A stretch of DNA of 64,000 nucleotides, from positions 42,571 to 106,570 of the forward strand of contig JAIOYP010000008.1 of NCBI GenBank assembly GCA_021741155.1. The letters run 5' to 3'. The notes under the pieces were generated by a model. It was not told the DNA's origin, did no database searches, and saw only the letters and a list, made by a program, of their open reading frames with translations. Source of the DNA: Flavobacteriales bacterium (GTDB lineage: Bacteria > Bacteroidota > Bacteroidia > UBA10329). Shown here piece after piece: positions 40,201 to 50,623 of the stretch. The number at the start of each line of letters is the position of its first letter. Within the stretch, counting starts at the first letter, position 1. The translations under genes and the position numbers were made by a program.

Positions 40201-41225
40201 CGGTTGTTGCTTGCGGAACTGGAAATGATGACGTGTGGCCGGGAGATGCCAACAGCGATGGCGTTGTCACCAATTCTGATGCGCTTTACTTGGGATTGGC
40301 GTTCAATCAAAACGGCCCGAACCGCCCAGCGGCCACCTTGAATTGGTTGGGTCAGCCATGCTCAGATTGGACTTTCAACTTTGCGGTGAATAACGTGAAC
40401 CTCAAACATGCCGATTGTGATGGAAACGGCATCATCAACTTTGACGATACATTGGCGATTGACTTCAATTACCTCAACACGCACAACAAGTTTGAAGGGA
40501 TTTCTGCAGGAGGAAATCCACCAATTTGGATACAAGCATCGCCAGATACCGTTGGTTTGGAGCAAGCGATTGACATCATCGTTCATTTAGGAACGGCTGC
40601 GCAACCTGTTGACAGTCTTCACGGAGTTGCATTTAGCCTCACGTTTGATGAAACGTTGCTTACTCAGAACGGTCTGAGTGTTGATTTCGATAACTGCGCT
40701 CTCGGAACGGCAGGAACCGATGTCATCGCTTTCCAAAAGAACCTGTTCAATGATGGAATGATTGACTTTGCGGTAACGCGAAATACGCTGCAAGATTTCC
40801 AAGGCTATGGGCCCATTGCACACCTGCGAATTGTGACTACCGATAACCTTTCGGGCATTCATTATGTGGCACTTGGTATTGGTGGAGTAGTGGCACTCAC
40901 AGCATCCGAAACTACGGTTGAACTGACTGCTATTGGCGACACGGTTGTCATCGACCCAAGTAAAGTGGGTATTGATGAAGCTGCGCTAGCGAATGTCTCA
41001 ATCTATCCTAATCCAGCTACGGATGTGCTGAACATTGCAGGTTTGGAAGGCGCGGGAACAATCTCGATTTACAATGCGGTTGGTCAGGAAATGATGGCTG
41101 TTCCATTCAATAATTCTGACAGAATGAAACTAAACCTCTCCGATTGGGTATCAGGCGTGTACTTGGTACAAATAAGAACCGAGAAAGGAGTTGTAATGCA
41201 TAAATTAAGGTTGATTCAGTCGTAA
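37266..41225 (+). CDS. Giant T9SS-secreted PKD protein with dockerin-like and cohesin-like regions
   Basis: A 1,319-residue protein. A signal peptide (to about NQAAAQ) is followed by repeated modules with PKD signatures: YYWDFGDGSTSS near 304, a weaker WNLGNGNTF near 540 and WDFGDGTTQTD near 780. Each is followed by a Cys-containing segment (ELCNGTVPLVV...YYSGCQQVFHTFEV). Near 990-1070 two calcium-loop-like motifs, DANSDGVVTNSDALYLG and DCDGNGIINFDDTLA, resemble a dockerin. Residues about 1090-1230 resemble a cohesin-type beta-sandwich. The end (IYPNPATDVLNIAGLEG, GVYLVQIRTEKG) is a type A T9SS sorting domain. It is probably a surface adhesin or polymer-binding protein. Confidence 0.88.
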   Translation: MKMNKRVLKGISGMILMLAIGLGTLNQAAAQCTVEVFATQNPGNCFSQVGIASTASEPVQSWTYYIDGEIVGTTSSVFLNLEPGTYVASVVVITTQNCTAVDDFSFTVAGTQVSVNAGADYVACQETPLLSVSVNSPNPYSLQWTPAYLLSDATSANPQITQNVTNQWFIVDVIDDVTGCIHSDTITVTQQNPLMDSLDLCSGSAVINLGPGGNYYDWLSWTDTNGVNTQLNYPTNQQSITVNDPGQYFAVANFPQCGALTSLVTVEACPSQCYSFFTYINSPQQCSEAFQFVPGSSAQGVTYYWDFGDGSTSSDISPTHVYTAGIYTVSLVVVDENQCTSVSEQTITVGGLSAQINEDVIACQGQLMLFSNASGGSGNYSYSWTPTPGITSPTSQNTMLVVQTEGWIYVTVFDTQTQCSSSDSVYVYDNQQINLTMELCNGTVPLVVDPGSLVYNWTYTDLQGNTSNITNSGNSYIASQLGTYAVMTYYSGCQQVFHTFEVLPCSSNCTSAITSTLNYQNCGAMVNFISSYSSAIDSAVWNLGNGNTFVQYGSQPAPQEFYAGGNYVVSLTAYHTSGCVSTTGYGITLLTDIVAEINAPDTIACAGQVFLSASATGGGGQYAYFWPLSGGTTPSVVLVVSQNQWVEVAVTDTYTGCTAYDSVYVYANQAINETVEMCQSSVPLMVDPGSMVYNWSYTDQSGNTTQLPIQTNELEAFNLGTYTCMTYYSGCQQVFHTFEVVLCPTACSSEFEGYSNPQQCGSLYDIVGQNFSSPTDSVVWDFGDGTTQTDNGGGDLHFYSAGVYTVTMTAYHTSGCISTSSQTWTVSSGVTIELIEDTIACAGSLLLDFNLVGGSGNYTYNWTPASMMNNSTIANPIMIVTSDTWVELIITDTQQGCTASDSMYVYANTAIIQTLELCNNTVPLIAPQGSDVYQWSFTNSVGSTTLLTFSGNQIIGTALGTYVCFSYYQGCNAVTHTFTVVACGTGNDDVWPGDANSDGVVTNSDALYLGLAFNQNGPNRPAATLNWLGQPCSDWTFNFAVNNVNLKHADCDGNGIINFDDTLAIDFNYLNTHNKFEGISAGGNPPIWIQASPDTVGLEQAIDIIVHLGTAAQPVDSLHGVAFSLTFDETLLTQNGLSVDFDNCALGTAGTDVIAFQKNLFNDGMIDFAVTRNTLQDFQGYGPIAHLRIVTTDNLSGIHYVALGIGGVVALTASETTVELTAIGDTVVIDPSKVGIDEAALANVSIYPNPATDVLNIAGLEGAGTISIYNAVGQEMMAVPFNNSDRMKLNLSDWVSGVYLVQIRTEKGVVMHKLRLIQS

Positions 41226-41226
41226 A
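41181..41226 (+). repeat. 46-bp direct repeat, left copy (3' end of the PKD gene)
   Basis: The last 45 bases of the PKD protein gene plus one base. Its partner is at 43701-43746: 44 of 46 bases are identical (differences at 41182 and 41197). The two copies are exactly 2,520 bp apart and enclose the T9SS-tail remnant and the arylsulfotransferase-like gene. Confidence 0.85.
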
Positions 41227-41291
41227 ATTTGAACTTGGGAAGAGCGTGATGTTGTATTAAGCCGCGCTACCGTATTTCTACCACCACCAGA

Positions 41292-43605: not shown

Positions 43606-43700
43606 GTGTGAACAATAGTTTAAGGAATTATCCAGGCCATTGATTTTTGGGGAATAAAACTCATTCCATATCAAACCTAATAGGAAGCGTAAATTGAACA

Positions 43701-43746
43701 GTGAAAGGAGTTGTAAGGCATAAATTAAGGTTGATTCAGTCGTAAA
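43701..43746 (+). repeat. 46-bp direct repeat, right copy
   Basis: Repeats the last 46 bases of the PKD gene region including the TCGTAAA stop context (partner 41181-41226). Here it is not attached to an open frame. The similarity fades after it, with TTTGG shared a few bases on. Confidence 0.85.
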
Positions 43747-43818
43747 GTTCAGCTTTGGTATAGAAAGAAAATGGTCGCTAATTAGCCACCCTTTTTCGTT
43801 CGGTTTATATCAGAATCC

Positions 43819-44406
43819 TTAGCCGTTATCAACCGTCAGCTCGTAACTGCTCTTCATCATTGGGTTATCGTTCCTTGCCATGAGAAAGGGTTTCAGCGGA
43901 TTAATATCGGTATCCTCGGTGTTGGTCTCCTGTCCCGGATTCACCATGATTCCGGTGTTGCTGCCCCCATTCTCATTGTCGGACATAAATAGCATTAACC
44001 CAACCGTGCCCTTACTACGTCCAGTTTCTATGTGACGCCATACCACGTCCAGTGATCTTGTTTGCTGTGGTATGTCACGCCATACCACGTCCAGTGATCT
44101 TGTTTGCTGTGGTACGTCACGCCATACCACGTCCAGTGATCTTGTTTGCTGTGGTACGTCACGCCATACCACGTCCAGTGATCTTGTTTGCTGTGGTACG
44201 TCACGCCATACCACGTCCAGTGATCTTGTTTGCTGTGGTATGTCACGCCATACCACGTCCAGTGATCTTGTTTGCTGTGGTATGTCACGCCATACCACAT
44301 CCAGTGATCTTGTTTGCCGTAGTATGTCACGCCATACCAGATCCAGTAATCTTCTTTGCTGTAGTATGTCACGCCATACCACGACAAATGATCTTCTTGG
44401 GAGCAA
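43819..44406 (-). CDS. Questionable ORF across the minisatellite (195 residues)
   Basis: The N-terminal two thirds are 14-residue repeats (RSLDVVWRDIPQQT) encoded by the 42-bp array. The non-repeated tail (GSNTGIMVNPGQETNTEDTD, then MARNDNPMMKSSYELTVDNG) looks more like natural protein. Because the unit length is a multiple of three and has no stop in several frames, long ORFs appear on both strands by necessity, so coding status is doubtful. The tail may be the remnant of an older gene into which the array expanded. Confidence 0.25.
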   Translation of the reverse strand: MLPRRSFVVVWRDILQQRRLLDLVWRDILRQTRSLDVVWRDIPQQTRSLDVVWRDIPQQTRSLDVVWRDVPQQTRSLDVVWRDVPQQTRSLDVVWRDVPQQTRSLDVVWRDIPQQTRSLDVVWRHIETGRSKGTVGLMLFMSDNENGGSNTGIMVNPGQETNTEDTDINPLKPFLMARNDNPMMKSSYELTVDNG

Positions 44407-44417: not shown

Positions 44418-44460
44418 AGATGACAGCAAATAAACTTTTTAGGCACAGTTCGTCAAAAAA

Positions 44461-44512
44461 CCCGTTAGCACGCCTTTAGCTTTTGCGTAACGCGTGCCCG
44501 TGATGCGACAAC
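44461..44512 (+). repeat. LAFA repeat, copy 1
   Basis: The core TTTAGCTTTTGCGTAACGCG continues TGCC-n-GTGATGCGACAAC. Translated in the frame used by copy 3 it reads PVSTPLAFA-stop, although no gene is attached here. GCACGC (44469-44474) and GCGTGC (44492-44497) can pair around the core. Related copies are at 45237 and 45560. Confidence 0.8.
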
Positions 44513-44629
44513 GGCCTTTTCGTTATTTTCGTTAGGCAATGCAACAATCACAAACCGTCAGCTTACAATAAGTGTATTCGATTTTTGTTTTAAGGTCAAG
44601 GGGTCACAAACAAATTAATCTGGGTAATC

Positions 44630-45244
44630 ATGTTAGTTCCAAAGATGAATCTGGCAGAGATTCGCAAAGAGATAGACAAAGATTTTGAGATTGTGGTGCG
44701 CAAATCGCTCTTTGTGCTGAAGGATCTTAAAAAGAAGCATGCTCCCTTGCGCCAGAAACGGATCATAGAGGTGTACGACTACTTCTCAAAATTCAAGAAC
44801 AACTGGATATTCAAATGGGATGTAGATAAGAAGGTGACACTTCCCGTTTATCTGGTGTGGTATATTGGAGACCGCGGACTTACGGCCATTCAAGCATTTC
44901 CTAATGGCCCTAGCCTATTCTATTATACCTCCCATTATTTTAAGCGCTATAACGAGAGATTAAACCTAGAGATAAACGACCCGAAAAAGTTGCTCCACGT
45001 CTTTATGGAAAACCACTTGGCATATTCGTTTCAGTATCTCGAAGAAATTGCACCCGGAGTGTGGAAATTCTTTGCCTACACCAAAAACGGTGTGGCGCTG
45101 GGTACGTACATCCAAGCTCAGGACTGCTACAAAATGAACACGTTCATTACGCACGATATGCTGAAGGGCGATCAAAAGGAGATGGAGACATTTAAAAAGG
45201 CCGAGTTAGATAAATACCTCGCCACCTATCATAAACTGGATTAG
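44630..45244 (+). CDS. Hypothetical protein, 204 residues
   Basis: An ATG start and no signal peptide or membrane segment. A basic helical N-terminus (IRKEIDKDFEIVVRKSLFVLKDLKKKHAPL) is followed by a mixed alpha/beta part with many aromatic residues (YLVWYIGDRGLTAIQAFP, YYTSHYFKRYNERLN). The aromatic SHYFKRYNERL segment looks like a possible catalytic or nucleic-acid-binding helix, but I recognise no family. It sits between LAFA repeat copies 1 and 2, with copy 2 starting over its stop codon. Confidence 0.7.
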   Translation: MLVPKMNLAEIRKEIDKDFEIVVRKSLFVLKDLKKKHAPLRQKRIIEVYDYFSKFKNNWIFKWDVDKKVTLPVYLVWYIGDRGLTAIQAFPNGPSLFYYTSHYFKRYNERLNLEINDPKKLLHVFMENHLAYSFQYLEEIAPGVWKFFAYTKNGVALGTYIQAQDCYKMNTFITHDMLKGDQKEMETFKKAELDKYLATYHKLD

Positions 45245-45288
45245 TGCTCCTTTAGCTTTTGCCTAACGCGTGCCTGTGATGGGGCCGC
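45237..45288 (+). repeat. LAFA repeat, copy 2
   Basis: The core TTTAGCTTTTGCCTAACGCG at 45251-45270 is followed by TGCCTGTGATGGGGC. It begins over the last codons of the upstream gene. In the shared frame it reads ISAPLAFA-stop, one frame away from the gene's own end. Confidence 0.8.
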
Positions 45289-45318
45289 GCAAGAGAACGT
45301 TCAAACCAATGATTGACT

Positions 45319-45326
45319 TATCTTTG
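45319..45326 (+). promoter_or_regulatory. -7 box TATCTTTG, 5 bp before the ATG at 45332
   Basis: An exact TAnnTTTG match followed by ATAAT and the start codon, so a leaderless message is predicted. It lies just after LAFA repeat copy 2. Confidence 0.6.
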
Positions 45327-45331
45327 ATAAT

Positions 45332-45589
45332 ATGAAAGTCATACTCGATATCGATACCAACAGCAAGGACGCCATGGCCTTGCTTAACTATATCCGCTCG
45401 CTACAGTATGTGAGTATTCTGGAAGATGAACCAAACGAGTTGAGTTCAGAACAGAAAGCGGCCATAGAAAAGGGTTTGAAAAGTCTGGAAGATGGCCGTT
45501 TGACGCATGAGGAAGCAATGAGCTCTGCGCGATTACGCTTTCCCCATCTTTTTGAAAACCCCGATAGCCCGCGTTTAGCTTTTGCGTAA
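45332..45589 (+). CDS. Small antitoxin-like protein without visible toxin
   Basis: An 85-residue acidic protein. The N-terminal strand-helix (MKVILDIDTNSKDAMALLNYIRSL) and the helical LSSEQKAAIEKGLKSLEDGRLTHEEAM resemble Bacteroidota addiction-module antitoxins that normally precede a RelE/ParE toxin. No such toxin gene follows; the next gene is a TPR regulator. The last residues (PDSPRLAFA) are encoded by LAFA repeat copy 3, so the natural C-terminus may have been replaced by the repeat. It may be an orphan antitoxin left after recombination. Confidence 0.65.
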   Translation: MKVILDIDTNSKDAMALLNYIRSLQYVSILEDEPNELSSEQKAAIEKGLKSLEDGRLTHEEAMSSARLRFPHLFENPDSPRLAFA

Positions 45590-45611
45590 TGCGTGCCAAT
45601 GATGCGGCAAC
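45560..45611 (+). repeat. LAFA repeat, copy 3 (forms the gene's 3' end)
   Basis: The core TTTAGCTTTTGCGTAATGCG at 45574-45593 continues TGCC-A-ATGATGCGGCAAC. It supplies the last nine codons and the stop of the gene at 45332. The arrangement gene-repeat-gene-repeat with copy 2 is cassette-like. Confidence 0.8.
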
Positions 45612-45669: not shown

Positions 45670-47439
45670 GTGTTAAAGAAGCTCATTCTTTCTAGTGCGG
45701 TGGTTATGCAATGCGTATTGGCTTCGGCTACTACCGCTACCGATAGTCTGCTGCAACTGATAGATAAGACTACGGGAGAAAAAGAACTGTCCATTCTGTA
45801 TTGCTCGCTGTCTAAGTCGTTGCAATATGCTAGTCCAGACAGCGCCATTGGCTACGCCAAGCGCGGGTTAGAAATAGCCAATGCGGCCAATTATAGTCTT
45901 GGAATAGCAGAAAGCGCTGCCACCTTGGGCGATATTTATGTGGTAAACAATCAGCTAGAAGAGGCGAAAAAGAGCTATTCAACGGCCGTTGAGTTTTTCG
46001 AGAAAACCGACCGCCTATTTGATGTGACTCAGATAAGTATGATCCTGGGCAACATTCATTTGGCTCAGAACGAATACTTGCCTGCGCTCAAACTCTATCA
46101 GCAATGCTTGGCCATATCAAAGGAGAATGATTTCTCCAAGCTCACGCCTCATCTCTACAACAACATTGGCGAACTGTATTTAGAAATTGAAGACAACGAA
46201 GCAGCAAAGGAGAATTTTGATCGTGCCTTTCGTCTATTTGAAGAGCAGGATGATCAGTATAATTTGGCGGTGTGCATGCTCAATCTGGCACGTATAGCCG
46301 ACATAAACGGCAACCGCCTAGAGGCGATAAAGGGATATTTAGATGCTATTCGCATTCTGTCTGCCATGAATAGTTGGCCCAATATTGCAAGCGCCTACAA
46401 TTCAATTGCCGACCTGTTTATAGCCGATGGCGATTGGAACAATGCCGACCAATACCTTACGCAGGCGCTGAATATTATTGAAAACAACAACAGCACGTTT
46501 GCGGGGCCATCGTCCATTTACAGCACCAAAATATTTAGCAATGTGGCCAAGTTGGCGCTGGAAAGGAAGGATGAGAAACGTGCCCTCTCCTTTGCCAAAC
46601 GCTCGCTGAGCTTATCAACCAGCAACCTCTATAAGGAGAGCATTCTAGAAAACTCGAAGCTGCTTATCCAAATTTATGAGCAAACAGGACAGCCCGATTC
46701 TGCACTGGTTCACTACAAAACAGCACTTAAATATGCCGAGGAAATTCAGAAGGAAGACAACATTAAAAAGATTACCCAGCTGCGAATGCAATATGAGTTT
46801 GATGCCATGTTGCAGCAGAAAAAGTTAGACGACATCAAGCGGGAGTCGTCACTCCGACAGCGCGAAATGCTGTACATCGGTATTCTGGTGGTGGTGATTT
46901 TCACCGTGCTACTGCTCATACTTCTTTATCGAAATCAGAAGACCAAAGCAGATCGGGCCATCCTCAAAAAAGAGAACTTGGAGTTGGAACGAAACAAGCT
47001 TAATCAGGCGCTCACGTACAAGAACAAGGAGCTGGCAACGAATATGATGTATCTGCTAGAAAAGAACGAGTTCATAACCACCATTGCGCGGAAATTGAGC
47101 GAGGCGAAGGATGCTTTTAACAAGAGCAATCAAGATGTTGTGCAGCGCATCATCAACGAGTTAAAACAGAACTCATCCAAAGGCATTTGGGAAGAGTTTG
47201 AGATGCGTTTTAAAGAAGTTCATTCGGATTTCTATGCTGCGCTCAACGAGAAATTCCCCGATCTAACTCCCAACGAGATTCGGATTTGCGCCTTCCTACG
47301 GTTGAATATGTCCACCAAGGAAATCTCAGCCATCACCCATCAATCGGTGAAGAGTATTGATATGGCGCGCTTCCGTTTACGTAAGAAAATGGACATCGAT
47401 AAAGATGAGAATCTCATCATTTTCTTAACTCAATTGTAG
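45670..47439 (+). CDS. TPR-membrane-HTH regulator (Bacteroidota type)
   Basis: A 589-residue protein with a GTG start. A signal-like N-terminus is followed by about eight TPR units (SAATLGDIYVVNNQLEEAK, YNNIGELYLEIEDNEAAKENF, NSIADLFIADGDWNNADQYL), a membrane helix at about 398-420 (MLYIGILVVVIFTVLLLILL), a long coiled coil and a C-terminal LuxR-type helix-turn-helix (LTPNEIRICAFLRLNMSTKEIS, then SVKSIDMARFRLRKKM). The layout implies a periplasmic sensor domain with a cytoplasmic DNA-binding end, a one-component signalling protein. Target genes are unknown; the secreted-protein genes downstream are candidates. Confidence 0.9.
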   Translation: MLKKLILSSAVVMQCVLASATTATDSLLQLIDKTTGEKELSILYCSLSKSLQYASPDSAIGYAKRGLEIANAANYSLGIAESAATLGDIYVVNNQLEEAKKSYSTAVEFFEKTDRLFDVTQISMILGNIHLAQNEYLPALKLYQQCLAISKENDFSKLTPHLYNNIGELYLEIEDNEAAKENFDRAFRLFEEQDDQYNLAVCMLNLARIADINGNRLEAIKGYLDAIRILSAMNSWPNIASAYNSIADLFIADGDWNNADQYLTQALNIIENNNSTFAGPSSIYSTKIFSNVAKLALERKDEKRALSFAKRSLSLSTSNLYKESILENSKLLIQIYEQTGQPDSALVHYKTALKYAEEIQKEDNIKKITQLRMQYEFDAMLQQKKLDDIKRESSLRQREMLYIGILVVVIFTVLLLILLYRNQKTKADRAILKKENLELERNKLNQALTYKNKELATNMMYLLEKNEFITTIARKLSEAKDAFNKSNQDVVQRIINELKQNSSKGIWEEFEMRFKEVHSDFYAALNEKFPDLTPNEIRICAFLRLNMSTKEISAITHQSVKSIDMARFRLRKKMDIDKDENLIIFLTQL

Positions 47440-47866: not shown

Positions 47867-50623
47867 ATGAAAATGAATAGATTATTTACCTTTTGTTTAG
47901 CATCGCTTGTGGCGGTGACTACTGCCTTTGGGCAATCTACCGTGACGGTGAATGTGACGGATGGCGCAACGGCCATTGAGGGAGCTTCGGTTACCTTAAA
48001 TGCTACAATGGATGTCACCAATGCCAACGGAGACGTTGATTTTGCTGGCCTTGTTGATGGTTCGTATCCGTACACGGTTACAGCCAATTGTTTTGCGGAA
48101 GGCTCAGGAACGGTGGTTGTTTCTGGTGGTAATGTGACGGAAAACGTAACGTTGACGGCTTTAACCTCAGCAACGGTATTCTGGAATGTTGCTGAGACTT
48201 CTTCACCAAACTCATTCCCAGTAGCAGCAGCTTCTATCAGCATGACCGATGGAACGGATACTTACACATTGGCTTACGGAGGTTTCGACAACTTCATGTT
48301 TGATGTTCCTTTTGGAACGTACGATTACACCATCTCAACGGATTGTCATTCGGATGTAACCGGAACATTCACGGTTGATTGCGCGAACATCGATCCAAAT
48401 AACCCAGATCCAACAGTTGCCGTTTGGGAAGTGCAAGGTGCTGAACTTACTACAGCAATCGTATTCTGGAATGTTGCCGAGACGTCTTCACCTAACTCAT
48501 TTCCAGTAGCATCAGCTTCTATCAGCATGACTGATGGAACCGGCACATACACATTGGCTTACGGAGGTTTCGACAACTTCATGTTTGATGTTCCTTTCGG
48601 AACGTATGACTACACGATTTCAACGGATTGCCATTCGGATGTAACAGGAACATTCACGGTAGATTGCGCGAACATCGACCCAAACAACCCAGATCCAACA
48701 GTTGCCGTTTGGGAAGTGCAAGGAGAAGAACTCACTACAGCAATTGTATTCTGGAACGTGGCTGAAACTAGCAGTCCAAATTCATTCCCAGTAGCATCAG
48801 CTTCTATCAGCATGACCGATGGAACGGATACTTACACATTGGCTTACGGTGGATTCGACAACTTCATGTTTGATGTTCCTTTTGGAACGTACGATTACAC
48901 CATCTCAACGGATTGTCATTCAGATGTAACCGGAACCTTCACGGTTGATTGTGCGAACATCGACCCAAACAACCCAGATCCAACGGTTGCAGTTTGGGAA
49001 GTTCAAGGAGACGAACTTACTACAGCAACCGTATTCTGGAATGTGGCTGAAACTAGCAGTCCAAACTCATTCCCAGTATCAGCAGCCTCTATCAGTATGA
49101 CCGATGGAACGGACACCTACACATTGGCTTACAGTGGTTTCGACAACTTCATGTTTGAGGTGCCTTTCGGAACGTACGATTACACGATCTCAACCGATTG
49201 TCATTCTGATGTAACAGGAACATTCACGGTTGATTGTGCGAACATCGATCCAAACAATCCTGATCCAACAGTTGCAGTTTGGGAAGTGCAAGGAGATGAA
49301 CTTACTATGGCAACGGTATTCTGGAATGTGGCTGAAACTAGCAGTCCGAATTCATTTCCAGTATCAGCTGCTTCTATCAGCATGACTGACGGAACGGACA
49401 CCTACACACTGGCTTACAGCGGATTCGACAACTTCATGTTTGATGTTCCATTTGGAACGTACGATTACACGATTTCAACCGATTGTCATTCGGATGTAAC
49501 AGGAACATTCACGGTTGATTGTGCGAACATCGACCCAAACAACCCAGATCCAACGGTAGCAGTTTGGGAAGTTCAAGGAGACGAACTTACTACAGCAACT
49601 GTATTTTGGAATGTGGCTGAAACTAGCAGTCCGAATTCATTCCCAGTATCAGCTGCTTCTATCAGCATGACTGACGGAACGGACACCTACACACTGGCTT
49701 ACAGCGGATTCGACAACTTCATGTTTGAAGTTCCTTTCGGAACGTACGATTACACGATTTCAACCGATTGTCATTCGGATGTAACAGGAACATTCACGGT
49801 AGATTGTGCGAACATCGATCCAAACAACCCAGATCCAACAGTTGCCGTTTGGGAAGTTCAAGGAGATGAACTTACTATGGCAACTGTATTCTGGAATGTG
49901 GCCGAGACAGCTTCGCCAAACTCATTCCCAGTATCAGCAGCTTCTATCAGCATGACTGACGGAACGGACACTTACACATTGGCTTACGGTGGATTCGACA
50001 ACTTCATGTTTGAGGTGCCTTTCGGAACGTACGATTACACGATTTCTACCGATTGTCATTCGGATGTAACAGGAACATTCACGGTAGATTGCGCGAACAT
50101 CGACCCAAACAATCCAGACCCAACAGTTGCCGTTTGGGAAGTGCAAGGAGATGAGATTGTGATTGACGCTACTGTTTCTCAAGTAGATAACGTGTTAACT
50201 GCAAGTGTTTCTGGTCTTACCTACCAATGGGTTGATTGCGATAACTCAAACGAACCAATTTCAGGAGAAACCGGACAGAGCTACACTGCAGCTGTAAACG
50301 GAAACTATGCTGTCATCATTACAGATGGTAATTGTTCTGCAACGTCAGATTGTATCGGTGTTTCGGTTGGAATTAATGAGTTGCTGTCAGCTGAAGTTTC
50401 ATTGTTTCCAAATCCTGTACAAGAGGTGATGAACATTGGTCTAAGCGAAACATTGGAGAACGCTCAAATTGAAGTGGTAACCTTAACTGGAAAAGTGGTT
50501 TACAGCAACAATCACAGCGGAGATCAGATCAGAATTAATCTAGCTAAGCTTAGCGCTGGATTGTACATCCTTAACATTCGTTCGGATAAGGGCTATTTTA
50601 CTAAGCCAATTATCAAGCAATAA
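47867..50623 (+). CDS. T9SS-secreted protein with seven nearly identical 95-residue repeats
   Basis: A 918-residue protein. A signal peptide ends near TTAFGQ. Residues about 25-100 resemble a carboxypeptidase-regulatory-like beta-sandwich (VTVNVTDGATAIEGASVTLN). Seven tandem units of exactly 95 residues follow (for example VFWNVAETSSPNSFPV, FGTYDYTISTDCHSD, DCANIDPNNPDPTVAVWEV), differing at only a few positions. An Ig-like segment (TYQWVDCDNSN) precedes the type A sorting tail (LFPNPVQEVMNIGL, GLYILNIRSDKG). Each unit has two Cys, perhaps a disulphide. A surface adhesin or stalk-like role is inferred. Confidence 0.9.
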   Translation: MKMNRLFTFCLASLVAVTTAFGQSTVTVNVTDGATAIEGASVTLNATMDVTNANGDVDFAGLVDGSYPYTVTANCFAEGSGTVVVSGGNVTENVTLTALTSATVFWNVAETSSPNSFPVAAASISMTDGTDTYTLAYGGFDNFMFDVPFGTYDYTISTDCHSDVTGTFTVDCANIDPNNPDPTVAVWEVQGAELTTAIVFWNVAETSSPNSFPVASASISMTDGTGTYTLAYGGFDNFMFDVPFGTYDYTISTDCHSDVTGTFTVDCANIDPNNPDPTVAVWEVQGEELTTAIVFWNVAETSSPNSFPVASASISMTDGTDTYTLAYGGFDNFMFDVPFGTYDYTISTDCHSDVTGTFTVDCANIDPNNPDPTVAVWEVQGDELTTATVFWNVAETSSPNSFPVSAASISMTDGTDTYTLAYSGFDNFMFEVPFGTYDYTISTDCHSDVTGTFTVDCANIDPNNPDPTVAVWEVQGDELTMATVFWNVAETSSPNSFPVSAASISMTDGTDTYTLAYSGFDNFMFDVPFGTYDYTISTDCHSDVTGTFTVDCANIDPNNPDPTVAVWEVQGDELTTATVFWNVAETSSPNSFPVSAASISMTDGTDTYTLAYSGFDNFMFEVPFGTYDYTISTDCHSDVTGTFTVDCANIDPNNPDPTVAVWEVQGDELTMATVFWNVAETASPNSFPVSAASISMTDGTDTYTLAYGGFDNFMFEVPFGTYDYTISTDCHSDVTGTFTVDCANIDPNNPDPTVAVWEVQGDEIVIDATVSQVDNVLTASVSGLTYQWVDCDNSNEPISGETGQSYTAAVNGNYAVIITDGNCSATSDCIGVSVGINELLSAEVSLFPNPVQEVMNIGLSETLENAQIEVVTLTGKVVYSNNHSGDQIRINLAKLSAGLYILNIRSDKGYFTKPIIKQ
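48173..50167 (+). repeat. Seven 285-bp tandem repeats inside the gene
   Basis: The unit starts at about 48173, 48458, 48743, 49028, 49313, 49598 and 49883. The word GTATT(C/T)TGGAA recurs exactly every 285 bp. The copies are also very similar at the DNA level, pointing to recent expansion or gene conversion. Confidence 0.95.

Follow-up and report, generated by a model that had tools for sequence, protein, structure and literature searches.

It was concluded that the three direct repeats between positions 44456 and 45611 of the window (the whole 64,000-nucleotide stretch of Flavobacteriales DNA that was analysed) were most probably three old, degenerate REP-like palindromes, that is, non-autonomous single-strand hairpin substrates of a RAYT transposase (TnpA_REP, an HUH endonuclease) of the Bacteroidota type. 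A probability of about 0.87 was assigned to this reading. The repeats belonged to a family with a conserved covarying hairpin and an unpaired GYT foot, relatives of which flanked RAYT genes in six other genomes, and the window copies lay at the borders of gene segments. The covarying hairpin, together with the RAYT-flanking palindromes of the relatives, led to the assignment of the window copies as degenerate, non-autonomous REP-like elements. Thereby, what looked like a new cassette system becomes a defined family of atypical REPs, with a GYT foot and a stem that covaries, whose association with RAYT genes extends over several Bacteroidota families.

A repeat search of the window yielded three direct copies of 57 nt each (44456-44512, 45232-45288 and 45555-45611), all on the + strand, which was also the strand of the genes. 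The identity to copy 1 over the 57 nt was 86% for copy 3 and 74% for copy 2. The preliminary description had reported three copies sharing a core, and this was confirmed, as the window contained precisely three instances of the 24-bp core TTTWGCTTTTGCSTAAYGCGTGCC, compared with none in any of 100 shuffles. The same core was found three times in the whole 3.76-Mb assembly (G000). When copy 1 with its flanks was used as a BLAST query against the assembly, only chance-level matches were returned beyond the three copies, and one further, remote variant with a short loop was picked up on contig C11 by a covariance model of the family. No copy of the core with three or fewer mismatches was detected among the other eight members of the genus, except for a match in G001 at chance level; the genus set consisted of nine genomes, and the family and order searches gave the same nine.

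The covariance model placed copy 1 at 44458-44501 with 52.4 bits, with the hairpin at about 44467-44498, a 5' motif CCGTTA and a tail extending to 44512. Copy 3 (45557-45600, tail to 45611) scored 50.4 bits and copy 2 (45234-45277, core from 45251, tail to 45288) 40.2 bits. The left arm GCACGC of copy 1 still paired with GCGTGC; mismatches were present in copies 2 and 3, and the left arm of copy 2 was degenerate or had been replaced by gene sequence. A TTTT loop and a TGATG tail were private to the three window copies. Judged by their divergence of 14-26%, the copies represent an old array rather than an active cassette system, and such a divergence would not fit present-day reshuffling. A tandem array of a 42-bp unit (8.7 units, 95% matches) occupied 44029-44395, directly upstream of copy 1, and each of its units contained inverted arms like CATACCAC...GTGGTATG.

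The relation of the repeats to genes had been described correctly for two copies: copy 2 overlapped the stop codon of a 204-aa ORF, and copy 3 supplied the last nine codons of an antitoxin ORF. A common ending of the form LAFA-stop had also been claimed for all three copies. This ending was translated in copy 3 only, whereas in copy 2 the gene had already stopped and the ending lay in another frame, and copy 1, preceded by the 42-bp array, ended no credible gene. The loop length varied from 3 to 5 across the family, hence the coding frame of the repeat was considered incidental.

The family was recognized by scanning 395 genomes of the class for the core with three mismatches allowed. Mostly single matches were obtained, while G081, a genome of another family, contained four identical copies of TTTAGCGATAGCGTAACGCGTGCC. 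When the G081 copies were read with their left flanks, they were palindromes of the form GGCGCGCGTT-TAGCGATAGCGT-AACGCGTGCC. A relaxed pattern of this palindrome matched 14 sites in G081, two in G003, one in G006 and two of the three window copies, and the reversed control gave no match. These palindromes and matches indicated that the core in the window corresponded to the right arm of this hairpin together with its inner loop. The structure of the family was described as an imperfect palindrome, GYT followed by GGCGCGCGTT-TAGC-loop-GCGT-AACGCGTGCC.

In a sequence-only alignment of 19 copies, 92.9% of the cells were paired in the hairpin, and a value of 93% was obtained for 31 copies from many genomes, some of them located beside transposase genes; many of the 31 had been retrieved with a model derived from those 19, a procedure biased towards the structure. 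Compensatory changes were recorded at 9 of the 12 stem pairs in the 31 sequences. Changes on both sides of a pair amounted to 42 cells compared with 13.9 ± 2.7 after shuffling, and none of 500 shuffles reached any of the measures, a count that is approximate due to the shared ancestry of the 31 copies. None of the slid versions of the pairing in the 31-copy alignment came close to the real stem. Just outside the stem, an unpaired T, which is part of the foot motif, was invariant in all 31 copies, preceded by C or T in 28 and, before that, by G in 26; the canonical GT[AG]G tetranucleotide was absent from the 5' foot, where GYT was found instead.

With the covariance model, for which the 19 copies had been used, matches were obtained in 35 of 390 genomes of the class. 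Copies of the same genus in G003, G006 and G007 scored 47-57 bits; the GCGTGC right arm was common to them and the tail was present in most, and their loops were five bases long. The folding of single copies, proposed in the preliminary description, gave no support by itself: single sequences with flanks (111-116 nt) folded no better than shuffles, as the flanks swamped the short stem; the evidence for the structure comes from the family. A search of Rfam returned nothing credible, only chance matches to eukaryotic or archaeal families below gathering scores, and no T-run expected of an intrinsic terminator was seen by eye directly behind the window hairpins.

The placement of the 19 distinct copies of G081, the genus and the window, based on crude ORF calls, followed the ordinary REP pattern. 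Four copies were inside ORFs (12.8 expected), and eight had a gene 3' end no more than 100 bp away (3.8 expected). Dispersal of the repeat had been set beforehand as the refutation of a gene-plus-repeat unit, and it was largely what the relatives displayed, namely copies dispersed between genes and modestly overrepresented close to gene 3' ends.

The link to RAYT genes was investigated by using the NCBIfam model for REP-associated tyrosine transposase, which had matches in 259 genomes of the class. At least 14 of the 95 matches of the palindrome model were within 300 bp of a RAYT gene, compared with a rough expectation of 0.07 under uniform placement. These matches represented six loci in six genomes, and the genome of the window was not among them. 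The RAYT flanks with palindromes were read or located in G081, G297, G205 and G161, and assigned by coordinates in G029. The flanking palindromes were mostly inverted pairs; for instance, a tyrosine transposase gene with an internal stop was situated between two inverted copies in G081 (C19:54607). Another locus of G081 (L069, contig C48) contained two near-identical RAYT genes in tandem (177 aa, counted from the first ATG); each gene was preceded by palindromes, and palindromes also followed the second one.

Most of the flanked transposases contained the motifs (N/S)H[VIL]H, WQ and YIHNNP, with YLHNNP in the transposase of locus L103. In these motifs they came near TnpA_REP subclass 2.6, characterized by NH[LIV]H, WQ and YIH[QN]NP, to which they may belong. 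Subclass 2.6 is found mostly in Bacteroidetes, and its genes lie between 'atypical secondary structures' that also have copies at other sites of the genome (PMC6006769). In that survey of 2018, the structures were picked out manually (PMC6006769).

Among the matches listed, the genome of the window had one full-length RAYT (C13:108018, 100.9 bits), and three weaker matches were counted. Its motifs were NHAH and WRQ. No palindrome of the window type was located beside it, and other palindromes were found there, such as GGCGCAAGTT-TATC-AACTTGTGCC and a second type, GCGCAAGACTTCC...GTCTTGTG, which was also present beside RAYT genes of G002 and, in a related form, in G004. As the full-length RAYT was flanked by these other palindromes, the window copies were apparently orphaned in this assembly, the completeness of which was estimated at 94.7%. 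The second REP-like type, GCGCAAG(A)CTTCC...GTCTTGTG, was observed near RAYT genes of the genus (L067, G000:C13) and also upstream of the 204-aa gene in G005 (L023, 1200-1290).

Further, the gene segments adjoining the copies were compared with those of the genus. The segment 44563-45253 (+), containing the 204-aa ORF (44630-45244), had 78% DNA identity to contig C9 of G005, where the homologous protein was 81% identical. The homology ended at 45253, at copy 2, and no palindrome of this REP-like family was found behind the gene in G005. The 204-aa gene was patchy, being present in two of the nine genus genomes. Its protein gave no match in Pfam, NCBIfam, PHROG or PADLOC and had no relative in viral contigs or phages; weak relatives came from two genome contigs and a plasmid record of Parabacteroides.

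A similar border was observed at copy 3. The segment 45302-45558 (+), which comprised an upstream region and antitoxin residues 1-76, had 75% DNA identity to contig C1 of G003. The orphan antitoxin ORF (45332-45589, +) was 85 aa long, and copy 3 encoded residues 77-85 and the TAA stop. The alignments with the homologues of G003 (72%) and G002 (62%) were limited to residues 1-76. In G003 the operon was intact: a 78-residue antitoxin had a four-base overlap with a 96-aa ORF, which scored 22.7 bits against the ParE toxin family, just under the cut-off of 23. The homology to G003 ended at 45558, at copy 3, while G003 continued into the antitoxin end and the ParE-like toxin gene, for which tblastn gave no credible match in the window. 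The hairpin was positioned at the exact border where the antitoxin gene had apparently lost its 3' end and the toxin. The antitoxin gene was present in three of the nine genus genomes. REPs supplying the stop codon of an adjacent ORF are already known (PMC3733652).

We proposed that a RAYT, now absent from the lineage or never present in it, would have cleaved the strand of the hairpin at its foot motif and inserted copies close to the 3' ends of accessory genes, where insertion would be tolerated. At copy 3, an insertion followed by a deletion, or an insertion plus decay, may have removed the antitoxin end together with the toxin gene, and the in-frame TAA of the hairpin may then have left the antitoxin ORF open.

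Several other repeats were noted in the window. A 54-bp duplication (93%) was present at 41176-41229 and 43696-43749; its source was the end of a 1319-aa secreted-protein gene with some downstream bases, and the second copy was behind the next gene. Seven 285-bp tandem repeats were found at 48168-50154, inside a gene for a 918-aa secreted protein. The TPR regulator gene at 45670-47439 had a 71%-identical paralogue in the same assembly (C68:894-2597), followed, as in the window, by a small gene and then by a secreted repeat-protein gene. The pair is an old segmental duplication, and the paralogue was ruled out as an empty site, having other upstream neighbours.

Some findings were at odds with the RAYT explanation: the lack of window-type palindromes beside the full-length RAYT of G000, the absence of the canonical foot and the folding of single copies. 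A further one was the clustering of three copies within 1.1 kb, with hardly any at other places, which is unusual for a REP family and which both a block import from a palindrome-rich donor and a local re-insertion would fit. A passive horizontal import of the whole block from a donor in which this palindrome subtype is abundant, with the transposition having taken place outside this lineage, is a possible though less than even reading; it is compatible with the REP-like identity and differs on where the element moved. The private TTTT loop and TGATG tail, with no close copy elsewhere in the assembly, and the five-base loops of the same-genus copies in G003, G006 and G007 point to it. However, the GC content of the 44-46 kb region (0.451-0.458) was within the range of the surroundings, and for both gene segments the nearest relatives detected were from the same genus. 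The preliminary description had favoured a different unit, a mobile gene with its 3' repeat. Such cassette-like modules, in which the palindrome would be a recombination site acted on by RAYT strand exchange or homologous recombination, would explain the match of the copies to segment borders, the common strand of copies and genes, the patchiness of the 204-aa gene (2/9) and of the antitoxin (3/9), and the same-strand or paired palindrome clusters that punctuate toxin-antitoxin and defence-like genes in G251. We consider them unlikely, since the relatives with either gene have no such palindrome at its 3' end, the copies are 14-26% diverged, and most copies in G081 and the genus are dispersed, not arrayed. 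What stood of the earlier claim was a mobile-element family, the gene 3' ends and the segment borders, whereas no gene-plus-repeat unit was itself repeated and the copies were diverged relics.

The layout of the repeats had initially been likened to integron cassettes, though without paired attC core sites; an integron attC array (CALIN) was judged very improbable. It could draw on a GCCTAAC in copy 2 and a GTTAGGC at about 44531, after copy 1, but GTTAGGC was found behind copy 1 alone, and none of the three copies contained the core sites 5' RYYYAAC and 3' GTTRRRY. The palindrome has GTT in the 5' arm and AAC in the 3' arm, the reverse of attC; its relatives flank RAYT genes, and the stem changes preserve a REP-like hairpin. 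It is a rather doubtful but broader proposal that RAYT-type hairpins of Bacteroidota bound exchangeable toxin-antitoxin or defence modules without an integron integrase, of which the window would be a small decayed case and G251 (C3, C34) a fuller one; if true, cassette-like islands would be formed without that enzyme. In view of the palindrome clusters of G251, a cassette-like role is conceivable. At one locus of that genome (L145, C34:12000-22500), eight same-strand copies of a 95-bp unit consisting of two inverted REP-like hairpins were interspersed with small genes, among them MNT-HEPN and ParE-type toxin genes. At another (L144, C3:135500-151500), four direct copies of a palindrome with a conserved stretch of about 200 bp preceded gene modules, including a ThsB-like TIR protein, and a second direct repeat (CCGCAATCCGCCACTAGGCATATGCGTAACGTTG) was present at other gene ends.

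The REP-like palindromes of the window share with integron attC cassettes the repeat at the 3' end of small genes and the single-strand hairpin logic, and differ from them in core order, partner enzyme and copy placement. CGTC REPs, known from Bacteroidetes among others, are likewise tagged hairpins of similar size (PMC3733652); the present family has no CGTC tag and is associated with a transposase, whereas no transposase association was found for CGTC REPs (PMC3733652). The GTAG REPs are also hairpins of 20-40 bp, often close behind gene ends and sometimes giving the stop of the neighbouring ORF (PMC3733652), but they carry the GTAG tag, which is lacking here, and occur predominantly as head-to-head dimers rather than as single direct copies. 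Compared with the REPs of TnpA_REP subclass 2.6, the foot is GYT instead of GT[AG]G, and the window copies form a small direct array in a genome in which no cognate RAYT was found. The present family resembles subclass 2.6 (PMC6006769) in that its short imperfect palindromes flank the gene of a RAYT of ~180 residues, in which YIHNNP and WQ motifs occur, and in the further, mostly intergenic copies elsewhere in the genome.
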